64,000 bases of DNA from Cyprinodon diabolis (taxonomy: Eukaryota > Chordata > Actinopteri > Cyprinodontiformes > Cyprinodontidae): NCBI GenBank assembly GCA_030533445.1, contig CM060075.1, positions 38,831,219-38,895,218 on the forward strand, in the 5' to 3' direction. Made by a program: the position numbers and the translations under genes. This document shows, in pieces, positions 1 through 45,900 of this stretch; the stretch's first letter is position 1, and every line of letters starts with the position of its first letter. The notes under the pieces are model-generated. The model searched no databases and had not been told where the DNA came from. It saw only the letters and a list, made by a program, of their open reading frames with translations.

Positions 1-78
1 AGCCCATGGATGGGACCTCAGCCCCCTACTGCTGGACCAGCCACCTATGGAACGGGACAGGACATATACTGGCTATAG
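1..78 (+). CDS. gag: Retroviral gag, 3' end only (partial)
   Basis: The first 25 codons are in the same frame as pro-pol and end at a TAG stop at 76-78. What is visible is proline- and glycine-rich and carries no zinc knuckle, so only the extreme C-terminus of Gag is in the window. Gag and pol sharing one frame across a single TAG is the arrangement of gamma- and epsilonretroviruses, where a few percent of ribosomes read through the stop. The call rests on position and frame, not on recognised Gag motifs. The rest of gag and the 5' LTR lie to the left. Confidence 0.6.
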   Translation, partial: SPWMGPQPPTAGPATYGTGQDIYWL

Positions 79-3000
79 GGGTGCCCAGAGAAACCTGATG
101 GAGAGGCCATTCTACCTGTATTAACCCAACGACCACAAACAGAACCCACCATTGATGTCACTATATATGACAGCCATCATCGTTTCATGATTGATACAGG
201 AGCGGCCTACTCCTGTATAGGGAAAAGTGGAATTGGCCTGCCTCTCTCAGCATCAAAGATTCGTACAGTAGGTTTCTCTGGGAAAACCCAAATAATACCC
301 ATGACTGAGCCAGTTCCCATGATCATAGGTGAAAAGACTGTGTGTGCACCTCTGCTTTACTCAGAAGATACGCCCATAAATCTGCTGGGTAGAGATGTGC
401 TGTGCCAGCTCAATGCTAAAATCAAATGTACCCCGAATGGAATTTCTTTTGAAGCAATAGACGACAATGAAGCCTACATGATGCCACTGGGTCTACAAAA
501 GACCCCACAGACAACAAGTCATGAACCAGAAGACCAAGTATTTTGGCTGAAACTCACATCACCAACTTCCTTCCTCCAACTAGAGTGGGAAACATGGAGA
601 CCCCTGATAATGAATCACTATGAGAACTCCAAAGAACCCTTTCTCCCCCTCCATTGTACCATGTTTTATGACAAAGAGAAAACACATGAAGACTACGAGA
701 AAAGCTGGGATGAAGAAATTAACAACAAAACAACTGTCATCCAATATGCTGACATAGTGGTGGGACCACAAGGAGCTGCAGCTGTTGTCACATTTCCTGA
801 TAAAGATGTAGCAGAATGGTTCCAAGTTACCAACTCAGCCCCACATGTCACGTTACTGATTGCAGACGAGTATGAGTCACATGATCTAGGACCCATGGTT
901 CAAAAAGCAAAGCAAGTCACTGAATGGGTCAACACAGCATGGGACTGCATTAAGTTATCCAAAGATGGACTGTTCTTTAAGATCTCATTCTCACAAGCTG
1001 ATGAAGCCATAGCAGAACACATTAAAGTTCCTGGGAAAAAACAAATGGCAGTGGCAGCAGAACATGAATCCCTATTAGAACAGGTCCCAGAGCAAGTATG
1101 GTCTAAAAGTAAAACAGATGTAGGATTAGTGAAACCAGCAGACCCCATCAAATTCACCATCAAACCAAATGCTAAATTGCCCTTCCAAAGACAATACCCA
1201 CTTAAAAGAGAAGCAGTAGAAGGAATACAGCCTATTATTACAGGATTAGAAACAGCAGGAGTTCTTAAACCAACAGCAAGTCCCTGTAACACACCAATTT
1301 TTCCCATCAGAAAACCCAACAGTAATGACTATAGACTAGTCCATGATTTAAGATTAATAAATGCCATAGTAGCAGAAGAGATACCAGTAGTACCAGACCC
1401 ACACACATTACTGAGTAATATACCCCCAGGTACCAAATGGTTTACTGTGATAGATCTGTGCTCAGCATTTTTCAGTGTACCGGTCCATCCAGATTCTCAG
1501 TATTTGTTTGCATTCACCTATAAAGGCCAACAATACACTTATTCACGATTACCACAGGGTTTTGTACACTCACCATCAATTTTCAATCGAGTGTTGGCAA
1601 ATGACTTAAATCACCTTGACATACCATCTACAATGTTGATGTATGTTGATGACATTTTGATTTGTTCTGCTTCCAAAGAGCAGTGTGAAAGAGACTCCAT
1701 TACAGTGTTGACTGCTTTGGCAGAAGGAGGACATAAAGTAAGTAAACAAAAATTGCAGTTCTGCCAGCAAACAGTGGAATATCTCGGCAGGCAACTCAGT
1801 GGGGACAAGAGGTGTATTGCACCGTCCCAACTGGAAGCCATAACTCAAATGCCCAAACCTCGGACTGTTGGTCACATGTTGTCTTTCCTTGGCATGGCAG
1901 GATACAGCAGACCGTGGGTGTGTGATTATGCCATCAAAACGGCTCCACTGAGAGCACTGATTAAAGCCGCGGGTCAAGGACACCAGTCGGCTCAATTGCA
2001 ATGGACAGATGAGGCAGAGGGTGCGTTCCAGCTGCTGAAACAAGATCTCCAAACTGCTCCTGCTCTGGCCAATCCAGATTATGGCAAACCATTCCATCTC
2101 TATGTGGCTGAGCGACAAGGGTATGCATGTGCAGTATTGATGCAAGACACCCCAACAGGTAAACAGCCAATTTCTTATTACAGTACAAAATTAGATGGTG
2201 TCGAAGAGGGTTTGCCTCCCTGCTACCAGGGCTTGGCAGCAGCAGCCTTCGCATACAAAAAGGCCTCAGTTATTACTATGGGCCACCCTATCATTTTGTA
2301 CACATCACATCAATTACATGCACTGCTCACCAGTCCACGTTTTGTGATAACACAAGCTCGTCGAACAGGTTATGAAGTTCTGCTTTCAGGACCTGACTTA
2401 ACAATACAACGCTGTACCACCATTAATCCAGCCACAAGAATGGTACTGCCCACAGAAGGTGAGCCCCATGATTGTCTCCAGGAGACGGACACCTTCATGA
2501 AGGTAAGAGAGGACTTATACAATCATCCAATCCCATCTGATTTGACACTGTTCGTAGACGGATCATGTGTCAGAGGTGAGACAGGTAATAGAGCGGGATA
2601 TGGAATAGTCCAACTTAACCCTGATGGGACCTTTACCAAAGTACAATCAATGAGCCTAGATCAACCTTGCTCTGCCCAATTGGCGGAGATAAAAGCATTA
2701 ACAGCAGCATGTAAATTGGCTACTGGTAAAAGAGTGACAATCTATACTGACAGTGCATATGGCTATGGGGTATGCCATATAAATGCTAGCATCTGGAAAC
2801 AACGAGGGTTTGTTAGAACAGATGGCACCCCAGTAACACATGGGCAAGCTGTAGTAGAGTTAATAAAAGCTATGCAACTTCCATCTGCGTTGGCTATTGT
2901 AAAATGTGCAGCCCACCAAACAGCAAAAACACCTATAGCCATAGGAAATAACTTAGCAGATGAGGCAGCTAAAGAAGCCACAGGATCAGCAGTGCAGGGA

Positions 3001-3612
3001 CCAATGATTCATGTAACTGAGTGTGAACCCATTACTAATCTAGCCTCATTAATAGAAGCCCAAAACAACGTCTCAGAAGCAGAAAAACGTCTCTGGGTGC
3101 AAAGGGGGGCGGCTCGGTTAACACACCCTCACGCTGGGTTGTGGCGTAGTTCTCGAGGACATTTTGTATTACCTTTGTCCTTATTACCAACGGCGATTAA
3201 AATAATGCATGGACCTGATCATTGTTCACGAGCCCAAGTTGTTCAAAAGTTACAGGCAGTCTGGTGGTCACCGTATATGACACCAATGGTAGACAGAGAA
3301 CTGGCCTTATGTCCGCATTGTCCTAAATATAATGTGCGTAAGATGTTCACACAGCCCTTAGCACATATTCCCGTGCCAGACGGTCCGTTCCGCCATCTGA
3401 TGATGGATTATGTTGACATGATAACTCGGGTTCAGGGAAAGAGATATATGTTGGTGGTTGTCTGTAGGTTTAGCAGATGGGTGGAAGCATGTCCCACTGC
3501 TCATAATGACCACAAAGCTGCAGCAAGATTTTTGTGTAAAGAAGTTTTTCCCAGATTTGGCATGCCTGATACAATATCATCTGATAATGACCTCATTTTG
3601 TTTCACAGGTGA
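79..3612 (+). CDS. pol: Endogenous retrovirus pro-pol: protease, 2H-like domain, RT, RNase H, integrase N-part
   Basis: This is a polyprotein for proviral maturation, reverse transcription and integration. Residues are numbered from the Met at 187, but the frame is open from 79, just after the gag TAG, so synthesis by readthrough is likely. Protease has D-T-G-A at residues 3-6 and L-L-G-R-D at 66-70. Residues about 117-283 form an extra domain with H156-C-T158 and H220-V-T222 (see the separate entry). Reverse transcriptase has the motif A aspartate at 423, LPQGF at 455-459 and YVDD at 486-489. RNase H has D791, E834, D855 and D925. Integrase has an HHCC zinc site (H1008, H1012, C1042, C1045) and the catalytic aspartates D1074 and D1133. 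The frame shifts by one base near 3588-3590, just after D1133, and stops at 3610-3612. The remaining integrase continues in the next frame. RT and integrase look class I (gamma/epsilon-like). Confidence 0.93.
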   Translation, partial: GCPEKPDGEAILPVLTQRPQTEPTIDVTIYDSHHRFMIDTGAAYSCIGKSGIGLPLSASKIRTVGFSGKTQIIPMTEPVPMIIGEKTVCAPLLYSEDTPINLLGRDVLCQLNAKIKCTPNGISFEAIDDNEAYMMPLGLQKTPQTTSHEPEDQVFWLKLTSPTSFLQLEWETWRPLIMNHYENSKEPFLPLHCTMFYDKEKTHEDYEKSWDEEINNKTTVIQYADIVVGPQGAAAVVTFPDKDVAEWFQVTNSAPHVTLLIADEYESHDLGPMVQKAKQVTEWVNTAWDCIKLSKDGLFFKISFSQADEAIAEHIKVPGKKQMAVAAEHESLLEQVPEQVWSKSKTDVGLVKPADPIKFTIKPNAKLPFQRQYPLKREAVEGIQPIITGLETAGVLKPTASPCNTPIFPIRKPNSNDYRLVHDLRLINAIVAEEIPVVPDPHTLLSNIPPGTKWFTVIDLCSAFFSVPVHPDSQYLFAFTYKGQQYTYSRLPQGFVHSPSIFNRVLANDLNHLDIPSTMLMYVDDILICSASKEQCERDSITVLTALAEGGHKVSKQKLQFCQQTVEYLGRQLSGDKRCIAPSQLEAITQMPKPRTVGHMLSFLGMAGYSRPWVCDYAIKTAPLRALIKAAGQGHQSAQLQWTDEAEGAFQLLKQDLQTAPALANPDYGKPFHLYVAERQGYACAVLMQDTPTGKQPISYYSTKLDGVEEGLPPCYQGLAAAAFAYKKASVITMGHPIILYTSHQLHALLTSPRFVITQARRTGYEVLLSGPDLTIQRCTTINPATRMVLPTEGEPHDCLQETDTFMKVREDLYNHPIPSDLTLFVDGSCVRGETGNRAGYGIVQLNPDGTFTKVQSMSLDQPCSAQLAEIKALTAACKLATGKRVTIYTDSAYGYGVCHINASIWKQRGFVRTDGTPVTHGQAVVELIKAMQLPSALAIVKCAAHQTAKTPIAIGNNLADEAAKEATGSAVQGPMIHVTECEPITNLASLIEAQNNVSEAEKRLWVQRGAARLTHPHAGLWRSSRGHFVLPLSLLPTAIKIMHGPDHCSRAQVVQKLQAVWWSPYMTPMVDRELALCPHCPKYNVRKMFTQPLAHIPVPDGPFRHLMMDYVDMITRVQGKRYMLVVVCRFSRWVEACPTAHNDHKAAARFLCKEVFPRFGMPDTISSDNDLILFHR
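535..1035 (+). other. 2H phosphoesterase-like (CNPase-like) domain embedded in pol
   Basis: Between protease and reverse transcriptase lie about 165 residues not expected in a standard retroviral pol. They contain L-H-C-T at residues 155-158 (His codon 652-654) and P-H-V-T-L at 219-223 (His codon 844-846), 64 residues apart. Two H-x-[ST] motifs are the catalytic signature of the 2H phosphoesterase superfamily (LigT, AKAP7, USB1, coronavirus ns2, CNPase). The wording of both motifs, the strand-rich segment between them and the helix after the second recall the CNPase catalytic domain as I remember that family. The spacing is somewhat shorter than the roughly 80 residues usual in the superfamily. 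Function is inferred only. Possible substrates are 2',3'-cyclic phosphates or 2-5A. A lineage-specific linker that merely resembles a 2H fold cannot be excluded. Confidence 0.6.
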
Positions 3613-4730
3613 TCCAGCAAATGTTTAAACTGTTGTGCATAACACAGAAGTTTGGTTGTGTGTATCATCCCCAGTCACAGGGATCCGTGGAACGAGCTAA
3701 CGGAGTGCTGAAATCAAAGATCGCTAAGATAATAGCTGACAGCAACAACCGTTTGACTTGGGTGGATGCCTTGCCTGTTGCATTGATGGCAATGCGCTCT
3801 CAAACTAACCGAATAACCCATCTTACTCCCCATGAAATGCTTACAGGTCGACCAATGCCTCTCCCACAGGTTCGTGGACCCCTGCTGCAGGAGGTCTCCT
3901 TGGCACAGCTTGAACGTGAAATGGGGGACTATCTCAGGTCCTTAACACGCATTCACAGGCTTATATTTCAACAGGTGAAAGCAGCTCACGGCCGAGACGA
4001 GACACACATTCCAGTGGACGTCAGGGACGTTCAAGTTGGTGACAGTGTGTTCATACGCGTCTTTAGACGTCAGTGGAACGAGCCTCGTAGGGAAGGCCCG
4101 TTTAAAGTTGTGCTTACCACTCCCACTGCCTTGAAAGTTGAAGGTAAGCCCTTCTGGTTTCATAAAAACCACTGCACCAGGCATCGGCCTCCAGACCCAC
4201 CTGGCCTTGCTCCAGGACCGACGGGCTCTGCGCATGCTGACAGGGCAGCAACAAGTCTCCCTCCGCAGCACCCCTCCACTAGCTCACAGACTGTAGATGT
4301 TGCACCGATGTCGGGCACTGATGCGCACCCACTCCCCTCCACGTCCGGCGTCCAAAGACGTTCGGCACGTTTGGCAGCCCGCCAATCACCACTGCCAGGG
4401 GACTCTGAGGATGACAGTGTTCATTCTTATGCTTCCTATCCGCCTTCTGATTCTGGTGGCAATGATGATGATCTTGCTGCCACTGAGACTTCTTCTGGTT
4501 CTGACCCAGATCCATCCTTCGTTCAGGCACTGGACCAACTTCTTTCTTCTGACCCACCAGATGCTGGTGGCGTCCTGTCCCCTTCACATTCCTCACCTGT
4601 ACCTTCCCCTTTCTTCCCCTCCCTCTCCCCTTCCTCCTCCACGACGAGTGGGCCGTCGATCGACTCGGTCCCGCCCACCCCATCGCCGTCTGGGCATCTC
4701 TCGGATGCGCATTCTCCCGACTCTGACTAA
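3609..4730 (+). CDS. pol: Retroviral integrase C-terminal part in shifted frame, with long acidic Ser/Pro tail
   Basis: This continues pol after the frameshift. It carries the catalytic-core glutamate (S-V-E-R-A-N-G, residue 28 of this frame) and the usual C-terminal beta-barrel region, ending near W-F-H-K-N-H-C about 190 residues in. GTG at 3609 is only where the frame opens, not a real start. Beyond the barrel come about 180 residues rich in Ser, Pro, Asp and Glu, with a basic R-R-S-A-R-L-A stretch. That tail is much longer than in a minimal integrase. Its last 26 bases overlap the probable env start at 4705. The break at 3588-3590 is a single-base length change, so this provirus copy cannot make full-length integrase unless the ribosome slips. 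Confidence 0.85.
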   Translation: MIQQMFKLLCITQKFGCVYHPQSQGSVERANGVLKSKIAKIIADSNNRLTWVDALPVALMAMRSQTNRITHLTPHEMLTGRPMPLPQVRGPLLQEVSLAQLEREMGDYLRSLTRIHRLIFQQVKAAHGRDETHIPVDVRDVQVGDSVFIRVFRRQWNEPRREGPFKVVLTTPTALKVEGKPFWFHKNHCTRHRPPDPPGLAPGPTGSAHADRAATSLPPQHPSTSSQTVDVAPMSGTDAHPLPSTSGVQRRSARLAARQSPLPGDSEDDSVHSYASYPPSDSGGNDDDLAATETSSGSDPDPSFVQALDQLLSSDPPDAGGVLSPSHSSPVPSPFFPSLSPSSSTTSGPSIDSVPPTPSPSGHLSDAHSPDSD

Positions 4731-6639
4731 TCTGACTAATCTTCTTGTAGTGTTAACCCTTTGTGGGTTAACAAGGGGGGATCTGATTAAGGTTACTACT
4801 AACACGACACACACACACTTAATGCGTCACACACAAACATGTGCACTAGCAATGGTAACACTAGCTACTAACCAAGGGGTAATCAGTAATAATGATGGAA
4901 AAGATTTATCACTAATGCATGTGCAAATCAAAGGATATGATTATGTAATGTCTGAAGAAATTTTAGGGAAGTCAATGGGGAAACATTGGCTTGGAATTCC
5001 ACGAAGCATGGACTGCCGTGGGGATGGGATGGTGATCATTGAGGTAAGATGCAGAACAAACATATGCCAAAACACACTAACAGGACAAGTAATGACAGTA
5101 AAAAGAGCACATAAAGTGGTGCAACTGATAAACAGAAGACAGAAAAGAGATCTAGACAAATTAAAGACTGCACACTGGGAAACCAACATGTTCCAACAAT
5201 GGATTCAGTACTCTGTCCAGACAATGTTCAAAGCCAAAAAGCGCCCGAAAGATGATTGTATAGCCTGTTATAATGTTAAAAAATTACCAGCCCTTCAGAT
5301 TATTCCAGGAAGTAAAATAGGCGACTGCCCAGATGTAACGGAGTGCTTTGCTCATTGTGCCATGCAGATGGCCGGAGGTCTTTCATCCTTGTCAGAAGAC
5401 CACACAATATGCCCCAGAGCACTGAACTCCTCAATCAATGAGGTGATGAGCACTTTCTCCCTTCCACCCGTAGTACGAAAACCAGCTGAACTGATTTTTC
5501 CATTCTGTATAGCCCGAGGGAAAGAATTAGAAGAGGTGACCAAGAGAACCTCTAGACAAATGTGGACAACGGATGGATTGGTGACATGTAGTAATAGAAC
5601 ATGGTACCCACCAACAGCAAATGGGAACCTCACCCACCACATTAAGTTTTGTAAAACAAGCCCCAATGCGACCATACGCTGTGAACAGGTAGTACCAGAT
5701 GGGGGACATGTTATTTATGAGTTCCAACCTTCAAGTGTATCTCAATACCGAATACTGAGCCTGGTAAAGGGATCTGTCCCTTTAGGTGACATTTTTTGGA
5801 TGTGTCACAATGAAACACAGATGTTGGCCACATTGCCCCCTCAGTGGGAAGGTATCTGTGCACCAGTAATGCTGACAGGACAACTAAAGTTAATAGTAAA
5901 TAACCCAATAGACAGTAATGTAACATCTAACGACATAACCAACCGCATTAAGAGAAGTGCTCCTGTTAAACATGAGTGGAAGACCTCAGATGAAGTATAT
6001 ATCTCTTGGGATCAGGTCCCATATGGGGTACCTGAGGAACAGGCTGCTATAGGGAGTGATTGGATAAAAAGCGGGAGGGGGGCTGGTTCAGTACCAATCT
6101 ATGGAACCATTGTTAATGCTCAGTATATAGCTCGCAATAGTAGATGGGTAAATCTCTTATGGTATAATCAACAAAGATTTATAAATTTTACGATAAAAGG
6201 TATGGATCTGGTGAAGGATCAATTGCATGCAACGTCACTAATGGTTCTACAACATAGGTTCGTGTTAGAGTCTCGCATGGCTGGGGACCAAGGAATATGT
6301 GATTATATAGGAGAAGATTGCTGTACTTTAATTCCCATGCACACAGATGTTAACGGTAGCCTCACAGGAGTCCTACAGGAAATGAAACGAATGAGGGAAG
6401 AACATGTACTGCAGTCCAATTGGAACACTCAATTGAAGGGATTCTGGGACTGGTTTAATAAGCTTGGATGGGGAAAGTATCTTAAAGCAGCAGGGATGAT
6501 TTTAGGAGCAGTAATATTGATCATATTAGTAGTCATTTGTTGCATCATACCCCTTGTGCGGGGATTGGTCTCAAGACTTGTTGTAAGTGTAACTGGTCAG
6601 TTCCCAGTTGTAGAGATACAATTGGACCAAGTAATGTAG
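4705..6639 (+). CDS. env: Endogenous retrovirus envelope glycoprotein (gamma-type, CX6CC)
   Basis: The open frame starts at 4297, but ATG 4705 is preferred: it gives 644 residues beginning with a good signal peptide (L-T-N-L-L-V-V-L-T-L-C-G). The upstream part simply shadows the pol frame. A furin-type site R-R-Q-K-R lies at residues 144-148 and a second, R-I-K-R, at 414-417. The surface subunit has C-I-A-C (185-188), like the CXXC isomerase motif of gamma-type SU. TM has C at 532 and CC at 539-540, the CX6CC pattern of covalently linked SU-TM. It also has a membrane-proximal Trp-rich stretch, a transmembrane helix at about 595-620 and a short tail. Many N-x-S/T sequons are present. The whole frame is open, so this Env could be intact, although expression is not shown. 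It is presumably made from a spliced mRNA. Confidence 0.9.
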   Translation: MRILPTLTNLTNLLVVLTLCGLTRGDLIKVTTNTTHTHLMRHTQTCALAMVTLATNQGVISNNDGKDLSLMHVQIKGYDYVMSEEILGKSMGKHWLGIPRSMDCRGDGMVIIEVRCRTNICQNTLTGQVMTVKRAHKVVQLINRRQKRDLDKLKTAHWETNMFQQWIQYSVQTMFKAKKRPKDDCIACYNVKKLPALQIIPGSKIGDCPDVTECFAHCAMQMAGGLSSLSEDHTICPRALNSSINEVMSTFSLPPVVRKPAELIFPFCIARGKELEEVTKRTSRQMWTTDGLVTCSNRTWYPPTANGNLTHHIKFCKTSPNATIRCEQVVPDGGHVIYEFQPSSVSQYRILSLVKGSVPLGDIFWMCHNETQMLATLPPQWEGICAPVMLTGQLKLIVNNPIDSNVTSNDITNRIKRSAPVKHEWKTSDEVYISWDQVPYGVPEEQAAIGSDWIKSGRGAGSVPIYGTIVNAQYIARNSRWVNLLWYNQQRFINFTIKGMDLVKDQLHATSLMVLQHRFVLESRMAGDQGICDYIGEDCCTLIPMHTDVNGSLTGVLQEMKRMREEHVLQSNWNTQLKGFWDWFNKLGWGKYLKAAGMILGAVILIILVVICCIIPLVRGLVSRLVVSVTGQFPVVEIQLDQVM

Positions 6640-6843
6640 AGCATAGCCATGATCTCCTCCCACCCCCACCAGGTACGTGCCTTTCTTTATTAATCAAAAT
6701 GTATACTAAATTGCACAACAATGACTCACATACTTATTTACGTAGATATAGTATTTTGCATGCAGATTCATTTAGAAGAAAATATGCCTCAAGATGATAC
6801 CTAAAAATGCCCCATTATGTCTCTGAATGCAGATTAACTGACA
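6640..6843 (+). other. env to accessory-ORF junction with candidate splice sites
   Basis: The short interval after env holds a good 5' splice donor, AG|GTACGT, with the exon ending at 6672. It also holds a candidate acceptor, TGCAG with AG at 6831-6832, only 11 bases before the ATG of the next ORF at 6844. A small frame over 6537-6797 overlaps the env end but has no recognised features. The acceptor could serve a subgenomic mRNA for the downstream ORF. Use of either site is inferred. Confidence 0.4.
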
Positions 6844-7677
6844 ATGGAGAGAACTCATGAGGAAAAATCTTATGAGGAAAGCTATTACCCCGAGGAATGG
6901 CAAGAAAAGAATAAAAAGAGATGTTACACACAGGCGTCAGTAGGCACACACGTAGAGATAGCCGCAGGCTCCTATGTTCCCCCTAGGCAGCCGGAAGATC
7001 CTGCAGAGGGGCCGAGTGCTGCACCTACAGAGTGGAGCAAACCGATGAGGACACCCAGAAGGCAGCCTGATGATCAACCGCGACAGCCTACTGGGAAGCC
7101 ACTGTCCATCTTGATGTCACCGGGGGACCTCAGTATTGATCTCGGCCCAACCAGCACCCCTGCCAGTCCTGAGAATCCCGAGGATCGCCGACCACCGTCA
7201 CCTTGCCATCATAATTATCCGCCACCATCCATTCCAGGCGTACTGGCCATCTTTGGGGTCCTAGCAGATGACATACAGCTTGATCTTGCCGAAGCTCATC
7301 ATGTTGCAAAGTTCTTGGCTCATCCGCTGGAGTCATACAACACCAACAGTGATCTCAAGCCTGAAATCACCTCTATGACCAAAACAGTTTATGCCCAATT
7401 CATGAAGGGTCTGATGCACCCCGAGCCACGACGGTCTTTTGCACGGATGCGTCGCACCATATACAAACGCAAAGTACAAGCTGGGAAACGGCAGTTGACC
7501 ACGGACAATCTGGGACTGAGACAGGACCTTCAGAAAGCTCATCAGACCATCATCAGCCTACAACAGCAGGTGATGCAGCTGACTACTGATCTGCAGAACG
7601 TGGCTCCATATATGCAGGGGGGCCCAAACGGAGGGCAGAATTATGAACAGAATTATGGGGGCCATCCTTATCATTGA
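6844..7677 (+). CDS. Retroviral accessory ORF downstream of env, basic plus leucine-zipper protein
   Basis: An intact 277-residue frame lies between env and the 3' LTR, where complex retroviruses carry regulatory genes. Residues 1-30 are charged and rich in Glu, Lys and Tyr. Residues 45-130 are proline-rich and probably disordered. Residues 130-190 look ordered and helical. A basic stretch (R-R-S-F-A-R-M-R-R through K-R-Q, 196-217) is followed by a regular heptad array. The d-type positions are L218, L225, A232, L239 and L246; the a-type positions are N222, L229, I236, V243 and L250. This resembles a basic-leucine-zipper layout, but the basic part lacks the usual N-x2-A-x3 signature. The C-terminus is Gly, Asn and Tyr-rich. 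I do not recognise the protein. A nuclear regulator or an oligomerising accessory factor would fit. A splice acceptor sits just upstream. Confidence 0.7.
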   Translation: MERTHEEKSYEESYYPEEWQEKNKKRCYTQASVGTHVEIAAGSYVPPRQPEDPAEGPSAAPTEWSKPMRTPRRQPDDQPRQPTGKPLSILMSPGDLSIDLGPTSTPASPENPEDRRPPSPCHHNYPPPSIPGVLAIFGVLADDIQLDLAEAHHVAKFLAHPLESYNTNSDLKPEITSMTKTVYAQFMKGLMHPEPRRSFARMRRTIYKRKVQAGKRQLTTDNLGLRQDLQKAHQTIISLQQQVMQLTTDLQNVAPYMQGGPNGGQNYEQNYGGHPYH

Positions 7678-8333
7678 TATCAACCTCAACGCCATACTGG
7701 ATATAAGGACAATGCTGATAATTACTGATTATATATACCTATGTTAAAAATAATTGACATAATCACTGTGTATACTACATGTGACAGTACACGTACTGTG
7801 CAGGAGAGTGCCACTTGGATACTCCTATGTTGGTTGTAATGACGGTCATTGACCATTAGATGACGTGCGCGCCTGCCTTAGTCCAGGCATGATGTGGCTT
7901 TTCTTGGTTATTTATGGGTGTGTCTTGACACCTATGCAGAGGGGGATGCGATGACTTCGCAACACAAGATGCTGCTTGGGCATTGGAATTTTCCTCTGCT
8001 GAAATAATAAACAGAATTAGAAAACTCATTCTATAAAAAAAGTAAGCAACGAGGAGCAGATCCTCTCAAGTGAGCCAAGAGGGGGATCCCTCTTAGTTTG
8101 AGATGTTCTTGATTTTACATTCTACTTTTTGCTTTTTGTCATTTTACCAGGTACTCACACTTACAATTTTTTATATACCAGTCACTAGCACTATAGGGTA
8201 TGTGTTTGGTCTCACTTTTGGTTTGGGGTGCACAATATATATATATATATATAACCATCAGTTACTTTTTAAGATTTCACTTTAATGGGATAATCACCGG
8301 CATAGCAACTTAGTGTTGATCCTTTTTAGGATC
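7678..8333 (+). other. Proviral noncoding region between accessory ORF and polypurine tract
   Basis: I see no convincing coding frame here. A 60-codon hydrophobic frame at 8103-8285 runs into a TA repeat (8226-8252) and is probably chance. There are short GATCC-containing repeats around 8057-8095. This appears to be the 3' untranslated part of the proviral transcripts. Confidence 0.5.
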
Positions 8334-8345
8334 AAAGGGGGGAAA
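8334..8345 (+). other. Polypurine tract (plus-strand primer site)
   Basis: AAAGGGGGGAAA lies directly against the TG that opens the 3' LTR, as expected of a retroviral polypurine tract, which primes plus-strand DNA synthesis. Confidence 0.85.
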
Positions 8346-9185
8346 TGTAGTGTATTATTTGTCATAAATGATTAGAATAAAACAAGAATTAAAAGTTTTA
8401 AATGATTAAAGAGAGTTGTGTTCATGAATACATTTATGTAGGCCAAGAGGAGAAAAACAGAGCAATGAGTGTGTGTAACTGCTGCACCTGACTGTAAGAG
8501 GAAGAAAAGCACACTCATCTGCTGGAAAGCACAGGATTAAGGCCCTTAGTGATAAGAAAAAGCACCCTCATAAAAATGAAGTATTTGACATATCAAGGTT
8601 AACCAGCTCAGCAAAATTTGGCCATACAACTTGTGATAAATAGAGTTGTTATTTTCAAGGCACAATGTGCAGTACTGATCCCAGAAGGGGTGATGCTTTG
8701 ACTGAGACACAAAGAGGAACACTAGGCCAGACTGACATGGCTTAAAGTAGGGAAAGGATAAGTTTCAACATGTTTGTGATTAAACTGTCATAAGTTTCTG
8801 ATTTAAGTGCACTAAATGTCATCATGATTTGCAAAGAAATGTCACAATGACCTGTAACAAAGACTGTTGATTAAATATATAAAAAATATGCTGTCAAAGG
8901 GATTTTCCACCGGTAAGATAAAAATAATTGGTTTTACCCGAAGAAAAAGTACCTAGAATAGTGAAAAAAGGAGGGGGCCTGTAGGAGGAGCTAACAGGCC
9001 CCATGAAATGTATAAAAGAGGGCCATTTTCATTATTTGTTCAGTTGCACGCCGGCGGTCAACTCGTGTGTGATTCTTTGTATGTTGCAATAAATTGCATT
9101 GGACCTGGACTTCAGCTGCTTCTGCCTGATTTTTGGATCATTGTTTGCAATTTTTCTGCCTTTTAAAAGACTTTGAATTTTTACA
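8346..9185 (+). repeat. 3' LTR of the endogenous retrovirus
   Basis: The LTR starts TGTAGTG directly after the polypurine tract. A TATA box (TATAAAAG, 9011-9018) and a poly(A) signal (AATAAA, 9088-9093) stand in the right order, so U3 is about 665 bp, R begins near 9040 and U5 is short. The right edge is placed at TACA (9182-9185), which pairs with the opening TGTA. The 5' LTR and target-site duplication lie outside the window, so this edge could be off by some tens of bases. Confidence 0.8.
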
Positions 9186-12100
9186 AAAACTTAGCTCTAA
9201 TTTTAAGTCGCTGAGGAGATTTCCAACGACAAACAGAGCATCGCTTTGGACAGATACGCTGCACAGGTTTCACCAGCAACTTCCTCCTCACACCCCGCTC
9301 TCTCTTTTGGTCTGCGCATCGCAGTAGTTCTAAACCACACATGATGCATGAATTATTGCCCACCCGCTCTCACTCGCATTAAAAAAACACCACCTCACAT
9401 AGTCTAAAATCAGCGATGAATTATCCGACTCGCGGGCTTCCGTGAACAACTATCTATATCAGGGAGACTCCCGGAATTCGGGAGACTTGGGATGTTTGGG
9501 TTTTATAGCAGATAGGGTTCTGTTAGGTCGGGATCCTGTGCTGCTCTATAACCGTTAACTATGCGTGCCAGTCAGGTGTGTCGTCCTCTGTGGCCTTAAG
9601 CTGTTCTGCTTAGTGGAACCGCACACAGCACTGCTAAACCGATCCTGCTCCATCATACTCTCTGCTCTGTGGTTGCCTGAGGAGGAGGAACTCCTTTGGC
9701 TCCCTTTTCACACAACTTCTTTAACGCAGGAACGGTTTCACTCTTCCTCTTCCTCTGTCCCTTCAACCAGTGAACAGGGGGCCTTCCCCCTTTCGCCATC
9801 CGTCCAGGATGGTAGATGTCACCTTTCTACACTCTTCTACCTTTCTAGCTCTTTGTTCAGCCTTCAGACACAGTTCTGTTTCTGTGACTTTCTCTGATCA
9901 AACACATCAACAACCAGCAGATCTTTTCTAGGATTTCTAGTTGACTCAACCACTTTCTGAATCTCACTTTCACAAGCCTCTATGCTGAGACTAATTATCG
10001 CTTTATGCTCTTCTGTGGACAAAGAGATTAATATGCTAATTAGAGCTCAGGGCCTCCATCTCTGCTAAAGCTGCCGAAGCTCCCTCTGCTACCTTATCCT
10101 GTTCCCTCTCCATTATGTTCACTAGGAAAGGATGAAGCAGGAAACGTAGCACACAGGCTACAAATCACTAACCCTTTTAGAACCACACACACAAAGGCTG
10201 ATACACTCCATTTGCTGTAGGTCTGTTTACCTACAGGGCAGGGGTACAACATGTGCAGACAGTTACGATACGCAGGTTATCTTTAAAGCATCTTTGTTAA
10301 AACCATCAGCAGTTGAACCAGAAAGCTTATTTCACATAAAAACACAAACACATTTATTAATTCTACCTAGTTAACCCAAGCAAAGCACTTATTAAGCATC
10401 AGATGGAAAGGGGGAATGGTGGATGTTACTGTTTGGCTTGGTGGAGTGGAAGGCCTTCCTGCCTCGGTATGGTTCTCTTTTGCCCAGTCTGTTTGTCCAA
10501 CAGCAGCTCTTAAAGATATTTGGATTAATCCGATCCAATAACAAGAGGCAACTTTGCAGGGGGGTTATTTTTATAACTCATAATTGGCATTGACATCTCC
10601 CTTTAACTACAGCGGTTAGCTGGCAGCCGCGACCTTGCAGCAACCCGGAGGCTTCTCTCAGGCAGGACCAGTATGGCACCGGTTGACGGCTTCTAACGGG
10701 TCCTCGTTACCGGGATCGGCCCCCCCGTTGCTCCTTTGACGGTTACATTTAAGTTACCAGAGCTGGATTAGCTCTCCCTCTCTCTGCTGCAGCAGACGGT
10801 TTCAGGAAACACTGCATTTAACTCTGTTTGAATCGCAGGAAAAAGGACAAAACACTACGATCAGCTCCTTCTGAATCATTGGAAAAAAGGTAGTCTGACT
10901 CGGTCCAGCGAGCACAGATCTCTCGAGAGAGATTTGGTTACCAAGTAACGTAAGGTCACCCCCTCAGGGCCACCGTAGCTTTCAGCTGAGAAGCGATTAG
11001 ACGAGACTTTAGTAGCCGGGGGCCACTGGAAACAGGAAGTTGAATGAGAGAGTTTCTTTTCTAAACTCAGTCCAAGAGATGTGCCTTCAGAGGGGAGTAG
11101 TAGAGTAGACCATTGTTAAATATGGAAGTTATGTTCCCCTGAAGGCAGCTGCGCCTCGGAACTTCCCTACCACTTCTTTACCTGGGAGCAAGTTATTTAC
11201 TACTCTTAACTCAACTGGGTAAAACCATATAAAAAAGGACTAAAAAACAGGAGTAAAAAATAACAGAGTTTATGCCAGATCAGGTCGTTACCGGACAGAG
11301 AATTTGCTTGGAGTTGGCACAGCTGTGGGCTCAGAAAACGTCAGCGAGCGTCCAGCAAAGATTGAGCCCCGAAACAAGGTCATCTCCTCCTTCTTATAGC
11401 TCATGAGTCCATGTGTTGCACCAGGTGGATTCTCAGCTGTCCGTATCAGAAACTGACACGCCATCCATGCTCTGACCTTTATGCATCTTACCTCTTTACC
11501 CCAGGATTCAAATAGCTCTCCTTTATCAGTCCGGCTCCAAGATGTGCCCATATCCTGTGTATTTCTAAAGACACGAAGGCTGTCCTGATTATATGACCTC
11601 CGTACACACAGCGACATCCACCATGTGAAGGAAGGCCTTCTACTCTGTCTAATCTGGCTAACAAACTAACAATGCACATGATGTATAAAGAATAAACCTA
11701 ACACCGTTGATCCCAACATCACTCAAAATACACCATCATTTTCACCAGATGCAAAAAAATGCATAAGTGTGTTTCTGGATCTTCTTATCCACATTAAATA
11801 ACAACAAAAGGCGGCAGGGATCACAGAAAAAGTGAAACCTTTGATCCTTTTCGAAGTTTCGCTTTTAAAAAACTCATCACTTCAACAAAGAAATCAGATT
11901 GCGTAATTATTAAGAATGATGCTTGGAACTCATCCACGTGGCTTATTAGGTTACAGAAAGAGACACGCTGCAGCTTCCCTTCCAGGTTCTACGATCTTTT
12001 CCAAAGCCAGCTACATCAAAAGCAAAACTGGCTTTCAGCAGTTGGTATTTTTTTCTTGCAATTAGTTTCATAAACATCATACTGTGCTGTGTTTTATGCA

Positions 12101-28199: not shown

Positions 28200-30721
<2,522 letters not shown>

Positions 30722-42900: not shown

Positions 42901-45900
42901 CCTTTCGCCACAACAATCCCGCCCCCTTGATAATCGACCAATCACATTCACTTTATTCACTCGTGTAAAGTCGTGCACCACTTGGGAGAATTAGGAACTG
43001 CAACCGTTGGAACAGCCGCTTCCCTCTGACTTTAGCTAGTAGCTAGCGGACATGAGGGGACTCCTCTTAATTGGCTCTTTGATCATATTTTGGCGATCTA
43101 ATTTTATGAGCATATGAGATATAAACGACTCAAAACATGTCAGCATGGTGCACCATGCAGCTCAACCTGTCAGCTCGTCTTACACAACAGTAAACACATT
43201 AACTGATCCAAAATCCTCAAAAAGAATCTCAATTGTTTGCTAGAAACCCTTCCCCTGAATTTTGCCTGACCTCTAACCTCTGCTGCTATTTAGCAGCTAA
43301 GCAAGTTTGTTCCACACCTTCAGTGTCCTTATGCAGCTGAAAGTTCTTGAAATGTTGCAGAATGCTGTTTTTGGGCAATTTGAAGTTAGCCACCAAGTCC
43401 ACACAGCCTTTGACAGGTCTGCAGAACTTGGAGCTGAGCATGTGACCTCCAATGATGGATCTTCTTCAATGCAGCTGGCCCTAAATCAGCCGTGCAAGAG
43501 AAAGAAGCGAGCATCAAGTCATTGCTCTGTTCTCAAACCACAGATTGCATATCCTGTTGGAGTGTCTTAAAGAGTTTGTTGGAGGGAAGGTTGCAGCAAT
43601 GAATAGTGGAGTTTAACAGAGCCAACTGCCTCATCCTACATTAATGATCATGGTTAAAATCAGCATGGATTTGGTCCCCAATGTCCAAAATTAATGTAAT
43701 GGTTTATGGCCCAACGTAAACGTCTACAGCACATATGTCAAAGTCAAGGCCAGATCCGGCCCTCAAATTCTTTATCCGTGGCCCCCTGGATGATATTTAA
43801 TTACCATTAGAACCGACCCACAGGCCACAGCCGCTTGTTCTTACTGCTGTGACTTCGCGGTCTACCGTTGCATTGTGGGGAATGTACTGTTGGTGTGGTT
43901 GTGTTGTGACCGTTTTCAGACCGTTCCAGCTAAAAGAGAGATGCAGGAAAACGCCAGCATCCCCGCACCAAGACCCAGTCGGAAGACGTATTTCCTATCT
44001 GTATTTTGATCGAGACGGAGCGCTACTTAGGGTGGCCAGATGTCCGGCTTTAGGGCGGACGTGTATTTGTCCTCCTTTATGAGGCACTAGGCTTGTAGAG
44101 CAGATTTTTATTTACCGTATTTTCACGACCATAAGGCGCACCGTACTAAAAGGCGCAGTCTCAGTTATGTGTGCCATTACTGTATTTAACACACACATAA
44201 GGTACACCGGACTATAGGGCACGGGTTTTATACACAGGTACATGTCCTCTACTACGTTTAAATACCTCTACTGCGAAAGCTCGAACAACAGCGCCAGCAG
44301 ACACCATCAACAATCCATCCGCAAACGGTGGCGTAACTTGCCCGGTGCTGCCTTCCACTTTTCGTGAAACTGTGGTCTCCGTCGGTCATCCATCGCTCCC
44401 ACGCCGCTCGCAGCCTTACTTTGAACGTCTGGTTCACACCGATTTCGAGCGGTTGAAGTTCCTTTGTCAGACGGAATAACAGCAAGCACAGCGTTCATTT
44501 GTTTCAGCATGTTTTTCACATCGGCTGTGAGATGGGCACGCATGGAGTCACAGATTAACAGCGATGGTGATGCGTGGAAAAAAACACCTGGTCTCCTTAC
44601 ATACACCTCCCTCAGCCACGCTTTCATCATCTCCTCATCCATCCAGCCTTTTTCATTTGCCTTAATAACAACTCCAACTGGAAAAGTCTCTTTAGGCAAA
44701 GTCTTTCTCTTAAAAATCACCATAGGAGGCAGTTTCTTTCCATTTGTGTGGCAGCCAAGCACAACACACAATCCACACCCACACTTCCTCCTTTAACGTT
44801 CTCATGGTGGTCTCAACAACGTCCGCAGTAACAACACACATAGGGCGCGCCGCACATTTTGAGCCTGAATTTATGACCAAAGGTAGTGGCGATTCATTCC
44901 ATGGTTTCTGCCAATTTGTCGATGCGATGTGGTCGCAGGAAAAGCTGCAAATGAACGGCGTGTGAGTACGAATTAACATAAAAGTAATAAACGTGCAGCA
45001 GCGAACTCTTCAATGTTGGCTTTTACATTAGGTTTTGTCGCCCCTGGATGCTAAAATAACTTGTGCAGAGCTGCAAGGTGGACTATACTATGAAACATCA
45101 CTAGTCTTATGGAAGTGTAGACTGTGACGTGAAAGTGGATTTCATTGATTCGCACATAGATAAAGGGATGACCATAAAGACAGGTCTGCTGCACACACAG
45201 ACACTTAACATAAGTTCCCAAAAGACTGAGGCTCTTAAAAATAAAGCTATACTTTTAGAGCAGTTGAATGTGTTTTCTACGAACTCTTTTGTTGTTTAAA
45301 AAATATATTAGGCTATTTTATTATGAATGTTTCTTTTTAAAAAGATTTTTTTAACGTTTAATTCAACACATCTTATGCTTTATGGTATACTGCACTTCAT
45401 TTCATCTTGGTGGTCACTTTTTAAACACCATAATGTATTAAATAAATACAAATTCTGGGAACCAATTCTTTTTTACATTTCTTTAATACTTTTTTCTATT
45501 CAGCTACACAAGCATCCTCTTTAAACTACTAAGAATTGTACTATAAATGTGACTTTACCTGATTCTTATGTACACCATAGTAATTTATTGATATGCGGCA
45601 CATTGTCCTCCTTTTTGGTGCTATAGAAATGACCACCCTAGCGCCACTTACAGGTGCTGACCTCTGCCCTGACTGTGCCGTCTGTTAACCTCCCGGTATT
45701 CTGCCCCTTCCGTCTTTATCACCTGCAGGATCAGCTCCCCTCTCCCTCCATCCAGGCTCCTTTTATTTTGGCTTCAATCAGCCTCTGGTGACACCTGCGC
45801 GTAGCATATGCGCAGCGCAGTTACTGCGCTCCGCCTCCTTACACCAGTGTTTTTCAATCCTGGTCCTCAAGGCATGGATGTTTCTGAGGTTCAGCAAACC

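Follow-up and report, generated by a model that had tools for sequence, protein, structure and literature searches.

The pol gene of a provirus at the start of a 64,000-nucleotide stretch of Cyprinodon diabolis DNA (assembly GCA_030533445.1, contig CM060075.1, positions 38,831,219 to 38,895,218; hereafter the window) raises the question of what is encoded between its protease (PR) and its reverse transcriptase (RT). Retroviral Pol proteins include PR, RT/RNase H and integrase, to which some lineages add a dUTPase. In the window about 205 residues extend from amino acid 115 to the start of RT, set at amino acid 321 (pol residues are counted from nucleotide 79), and Pfam detects nothing between PR (amino acids 21-115) and RT (amino acids 410-572). 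The segment 535-1035 of the plus strand, referred to here as the block, is stop-free and codes for 167 residues within the 1177-residue Pol frame. An earlier note on this DNA had seen two H-x-T motifs in this non-standard part of Pol and had read it as a CNPase-like 2H phosphoesterase domain. The open reading, the motifs and the additional length between PR and RT were all confirmed, and the domain assignment is borne out by fold, by conservation and by the presence of the block throughout the RT group of the window. The explanation that we favor overall, with a probability of about 0.6, is a CNPase-like 2H enzyme of Pol with a role at RNA ends.

A pair of H-x-[ST] motifs within a single domain marks the 2H superfamily, and the block has such a pair. 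HCT (nucleotide 652) and HVT (nucleotide 844) are 64 residues apart, with a GPQG stretch (nucleotide 763) in between. Both histidines named in the earlier note are present, while its numbering was off: its H156 and H220 are H192 and H256, as the count seems to have begun at a Met located 36 residues downstream. The case for the domain rests on conservation and fold and not on the motif count. Used as a query, the block matched four proteins, from Takifugu rubripes, T. flavidus, the pipefish Festucalex cinctus and one more, and a search with the fourth of them found 13 further proteins, including P0018, which is cut off inside the block. A first alignment, A1, consists of 17 rows, the pieces being picked by the pattern HCT plus PH[VMI]T, which all 16 complete relatives matched; P0018, starting inside the block, had been excluded beforehand. 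Both His, both Thr, GPQG and the Pro preceding the second His are invariant in A1.

A search with RT found 222 proteins, 120 of them listed. A hidden Markov model (HMM) grown from A1 detected the block, whole or cut, in 72 of 123 proteins (E < 1e-9), giving 73 blocks with that of the window. A second alignment, A2, has 36 rows chosen from the 73 without the 12 that carry a broken motif, and its invariant columns consequently overstate conservation; the counts over the 73 rows, taken among rows with a letter at the position, are preferred (Table 1). The four columns of lowest entropy among 142 are, in order, the Pro that precedes the second His, T194, H256 and H192, while the second Thr alternates between Thr and Ser and lies outside the best 14. 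The least variable columns thus include three of the four catalytic residues, in spite of a median pairwise identity of the block of 21% (65 rows). All four catalytic residues are intact in 54 of the 66 blocks having both sites; both motifs are therefore kept in most relatives, and the loss of conservation that would have spoken against the proposal was not found, though 12 of the 66 are broken.

The fold was compared using two predicted models, against PDB and BFVD. Both showed a 2H fold, so that the absence of such a fold in structure prediction, named in the earlier note as a contrary outcome, did not occur. Among the best 50 PDB rows listed, the nearest solved structure was CNPase, over the whole domain, and no other 2H structure fitted either model as well; no AKAP7, ns2 or VP3 chain was among those 50 for either model, which leaves room for families outside the list. 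When PDB was searched with the A2 profile CNPase led, and the match to a plant WRKY domain dropped to an E value of 0.089. The WRKY match, overtaken by CNPase once the profile has 36 rows, is taken as chance. As judged from the models, the block almost certainly has a 2H/CNPase-like fold.

The presence of the block was then compared with RT phylogeny. The RT table combines the window with 120 of the 123 proteins (P0006, P0007 and P0099 have too little RT), 121 rows in all, and removal of 31 cut or unclear rows left a tree of 90, in which the block is present in 65, cut in 8 and absent from 17. Six of these 17 were labeled by hand, their spacer being 35-40 amino acids and the protease DTG motif not being detected, and three of the eight cut blocks (P0029, P0058, P0059) are weak matches of about 25 residues (E 5e-4 to 1e-3). 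The PR-RT spacer is 198-235 amino acids where the block is complete and the protease was detected, and 26-44 in the 17 rows without the block; P0031, P0033, P0035 and P0119 are exceptions, printed at 90-97, in which the protease motif was apparently called inside the block. An amphibian protein, P0122 (Bombina bombina), has a spacer of 133 amino acids, between the usual sizes, with no HMM match; this may be a decayed or a different insert.

The window and 42 rows lie beyond a branch supported at 100/98. The block occurs in every one of the 42, complete in 37 and cut in 5, with P0029 counted among the latter by its weak 24-residue match. The tree is unrooted and was drawn with a midpoint root. 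It needs two changes for presence or absence of the block, and a tree with the 17 block-less rows held on one side was not rejected (p-AU 0.592; the held tree was 6.25 log units better); since there is no root, a single gain or a single loss is possible without being shown. Pairwise identities of block and RT are correlated (Spearman 0.735, 65 rows; maximum of 0.12 in 200 shuffles) with medians of 21% and 44%, and therefore the block has been inherited with Pol, its sequence evolving more rapidly everywhere but at the active site. Wherever a host is named for a row that carries the block, it is a fish in the broad sense: hagfish (P0068), shark (P0043) or ray-finned fish. One such protein, P0023, is also labeled Mustela putorius, which we take for contamination. 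Named rows without the block come from three turtles, lizards (five proteins) and walleye epidermal hyperplasia virus 1 (WEHV1); eight further rows are unnamed. We read the block as a probable enzyme passed down with Pol in a large group of epsilon-like retroviruses of fish. It is more widespread than the earlier note could see, many fish retroviruses sharing it with the active site mostly kept. The term epsilon-like refers here to traits (PR, RT, RNase H, an integrase with a murine leukemia virus (MLV)-type C-terminus, a TAG junction and fish RT relatives) and not to the formal genus Epsilonretrovirus; WEHV1 is placed in the opposite half of the RT tree.

The walleye viruses deserve separate consideration. 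With both models the top three BFVD matches were Q2VF30_1 (1072 amino acids, 30% identical to the window model) and two proteins labeled Envelope polyprotein, from WEHV1 and from walleye dermal sarcoma virus (WDSV) (Q9WHI8, A4GTG3). For the window model these two had E values of 8.0e-12 and 5.3e-10, with the fourth BFVD match at 3.9e-4, and their superpositions are loose (root-mean-square deviations of 5.6 and 10.2). In the pol record of WEHV1, P0094, the block is absent and the PR-RT spacer is 28. If the labels are right, the walleye viruses seem, on the predicted models, to carry the fold in Env. Passages in print mention 2H domains in certain retroviruses such as WDSV (PMC9503650, citing Mazumder 2002) and occasional extra open reading frames (ORFs), such as CNPase or macro domain proteins, in epsilon-like endogenous retroviruses of fish (PMC4977317, citing Basta 2009). 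These belong to the same superfamily as the window domain and also to fish retroviruses; the passages themselves give no genome position, whereas the window domain lies in Pol. The kind of domain is thus already in print for fish retroviruses and is less new than the earlier note held. The terms retrovir and CNPase are absent from the main texts of Nomburg 2024 (PMC11410667) and Goldstein and Elde 2024 (PMC10835031), which deal with viral LigT-like and AKAP7-like phosphodiesterases. Among the papers listed in the literature searched, which lacks most subscription papers, none dealt with how widespread or how old the domain is or with its place in Pol, which is no proof that these are unpublished.

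What the domain may do can be considered by comparison with CNPase. According to passages of PMC4643303, full CNPase activity requires both His, both Thr and Phe235, five residues after the first His; Tyr168 is also important, mutation of Arg307 chiefly raises the Michaelis constant, and the enzyme converts 2′,3′-cyclic phosphates to 2′-phosphates. CNPase also rescues a yeast mutant in the cyclic phosphodiesterase (CPDase) of tRNA ligase, as stated in PMC5434554. Counterparts of all five required residues are found in the window, in HCTMFY, with an aromatic residue five positions after the first His as in CNPase, and in HVT. From the fold together with the motifs we infer a CNPase reaction. 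Catalysis would be metal-independent, with one His as the general base and the second as the acid, and would open 2′,3′-cyclic phosphates to 2′-phosphates with a free 3′-OH. Intact relatives are predicted, with considerable confidence, to be active enzymes; chemistry on 2′,3′-cyclic phosphates is somewhat favored over that on 2′-5′ linkages, and RNA ends as the biological target remain a tentative proposal at just under even odds. The place of the domain in Gag-Pol, 3′ of an in-frame TAG, would mean synthesis at Pol-level dosage and packaging with RT. The likeliest substrate would then be RNA with 2′,3′-cyclic phosphate ends met by the incoming core, candidates being viral RNA or tRNA that has been cleaved, or fragments of RNA by which the host is alerted. 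Passages of PMC8406329 state that RNAs ending in 2′,3′-cyclic phosphate can stimulate innate sensors, and that viral 2′,5′-phosphoesterases leave such ends when they cut 2′,5′-oligoadenylates (2-5A).

The block differs from its cellular and viral counterparts in several respects. Identity to the catalytic domain of vertebrate CNPase (mouse, human; goldfish RICH) is about 18%, and CNPase carries an N-terminal kinase-like domain, whereas the neighbors of the block are retroviral protease and RT, neither of them kinase-like. The CPDase domain of fungal tRNA ligase (6u05) belongs, unlike the block, to an RNA-repair enzyme of the cell that also contains a kinase and a ligase domain (passages of PMC5434554). 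Coronavirus ns2/NS4b, the rotavirus VP3 C-terminus and the LigT-like phosphodiesterases of poxviruses and phages have in common with the block the 2H motifs, the general fold and being carried by viruses, but are not part of any retroviral Pol. Their matches in BFVD were weak: the best coronavirus row had an E value of 7.7e-3 in the first comparison, with no rotavirus row among the best 50 listed; in the second comparison the values were 9.9e-4 for coronavirus and 0.20 for rotavirus.

Several results weigh against the assignment or its functional reading. The fold comparison starts from predicted models; the window block alone had no match in Pfam, including the CNPase family PF05881, or by phmmer in PDB. 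With the A1 profile WRKY was ahead (0.0063) of CNPase (2.4), and the A2 match to CNPase is weak and limited to the first half of the domain. The Pfam gathering threshold for PF05881 was not reached, one of 36 relatives matching at an E value of 0.21, and single relatives match unrelated families at similar values, such as DUF4058 at 0.0021, for which reason only the best PF13563 match counts. IMG/VR gave nothing with either the window block as protein query or the A1 profile. At the active site, Arg307 of CNPase, two residues before the second His, is Ala in the window block, and the Tyr or Phe five residues after the first His, present in 48 of the 67 rows with a letter there, is missing in 19 and so is not general. 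Packaging is deduced from the position behind the TAG. Finally, a motif pair spaced by 50-95 residues arises in 5.4% of 20,000 shuffles of the block, so that the pair alone is not rare and could have arisen by chance in a linker. That reading is contradicted by the fold, by conservation of the catalytic residues over 73 blocks and by co-inheritance with RT; we reject it, its likelihood being negligible.

A non-catalytic role, as a decoy or interaction module, for instance against host CNP, or as a structural spacer of RT, would account for the 12 of 66 blocks that retain the domain with a broken catalytic residue: P0027, P0037, P0085, P0097, P0123 and, all in one 12-row tuna/croaker clade, P0057, P0060, P0062, P0063, P0072, P0082 and P0092. 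Activity is dispensable in some lineages, or these copies have decayed, and this too counts against an enzyme role. Host CNP inhibits particle formation by human immunodeficiency virus type 1 through Gag MA (PMC7471995) and is interferon-stimulated (PMC3832489). A decoy, on the other hand, would not need the catalytic residues kept; three of them occupy places among the four least variable columns and the fourth is T/S in 63 of 70 rows, which makes this explanation improbable. The main rival to a role at RNA ends is immune antagonism by cleavage of 2′-5′ linkages, in 2′,3′-cGAMP or in 2-5A, like that of other viral LigT-like phosphodiesterases, and in particular cleavage of 2′,3′-cGAMP made by cGAS upon sensing retroviral cDNA. 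It is unlikely, though less so than a non-catalytic role: among the PDB rows listed both models fit CNPase best, and Pol-level dosage would probably be low for clearing a cytosolic messenger. The 2-5A version is further weakened by passages of PMC2852836, according to which some teleosts yielded no OAS genes. An action on 2-5A and RNase L, suggested in the earlier note, is accordingly unsupported and, as the only role, not favored.

By its fold, the domain that we read as CNPase-like would place an extra enzyme of RNA-end chemistry in Pol across large parts of the RT tree, and a natural comparison is offered by named fish hosts with it, named reptile hosts without it and walleye viruses that apparently have it in Env. 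Capture from a host CNPase gene is plausible. A fuller scenario, which we consider doubtful, is that the domain is an ancestral additional Pol enzyme of fish retroviruses, was gained once before spreading over hagfish, shark and ray-finned hosts, was lost or never gained in reptile lineages, reached Env of the walleye viruses by movement of the module or through two captures, and would heal or hide 2′,3′-cyclic-phosphate RNA ends around the reverse-transcribing core.

Table 1. Features of the provirus in the window; motif counts refer to the rows with a letter at that position.
Feature	Position	Strand	Remarks
In-frame TAG followed by G, between the putative gag end and pol	76-78	+	readthrough-type gag/pol junction
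pol, open part: protease, 2H domain, RT, RNase H, integrase start	79-3612	+	one 1177-residue frame
Retroviral aspartyl protease PF00077, aa 21-115	139-423	+	Pfam E 1.6e-7
CNPase-like 2H phosphoesterase domain (predicted fold)	529-1032	+	residues 27-194 of the model of window 451-1038
First catalytic motif H-C-T, pol aa 192-194	652-660	+	H 61/66, T 64/66 rows
GPQG stretch, pol aa 229-232	763-774	+	invariant across the 17-row alignment A1
Second catalytic motif H-V-T, pol aa 256-258	844-852	+	H 65/70, T/S 63/70 rows
RT core PF00078, aa 410-572	1306-1794	+	Pfam E 2.5e-31
RNase H PF00075, aa 821-967	2539-2979	+	Pfam E 4.9e-19
Integrase core, first part, PF00665, aa 1102-1170	3382-3588	+	Pfam; frame broken just 3′, resumes in another frame
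Integrase continuation, other frame; MLV-type C-terminal domain PF18697 and Pro/Ser-rich tail	3591-4730	+	
Envelope ORF	4297-6639	+	weak C-terminal GP41 / TLV_coat matches, under Pfam cut-offs

Gamma-type retroviruses read through junctions of the TAG kind. We assign the residues 5′ of the TAG to the gag end because in the relative P0002 gag and pol continue without interruption at the matching position. A direct-repeat search of 6600-12000 gave no long terminal repeats, and the 5′ part of the provirus is beyond the window. An ORF of 279 residues located 3′ of env (6838-7677, plus strand), with no convincing match in Pfam, NCBIfam or PDB, is perhaps an accessory gene of the provirus. Elsewhere in the window, the minus strand includes an uninterrupted 361-amino acid frame at 29292-30377 that by eye resembles a Tc1-like transposase and, like the RT relatives, agrees with a fish genome, and a frame at 44307-44792 that, also by eye, resembles a fragment of a pogo/tigger-type DDE transposase.
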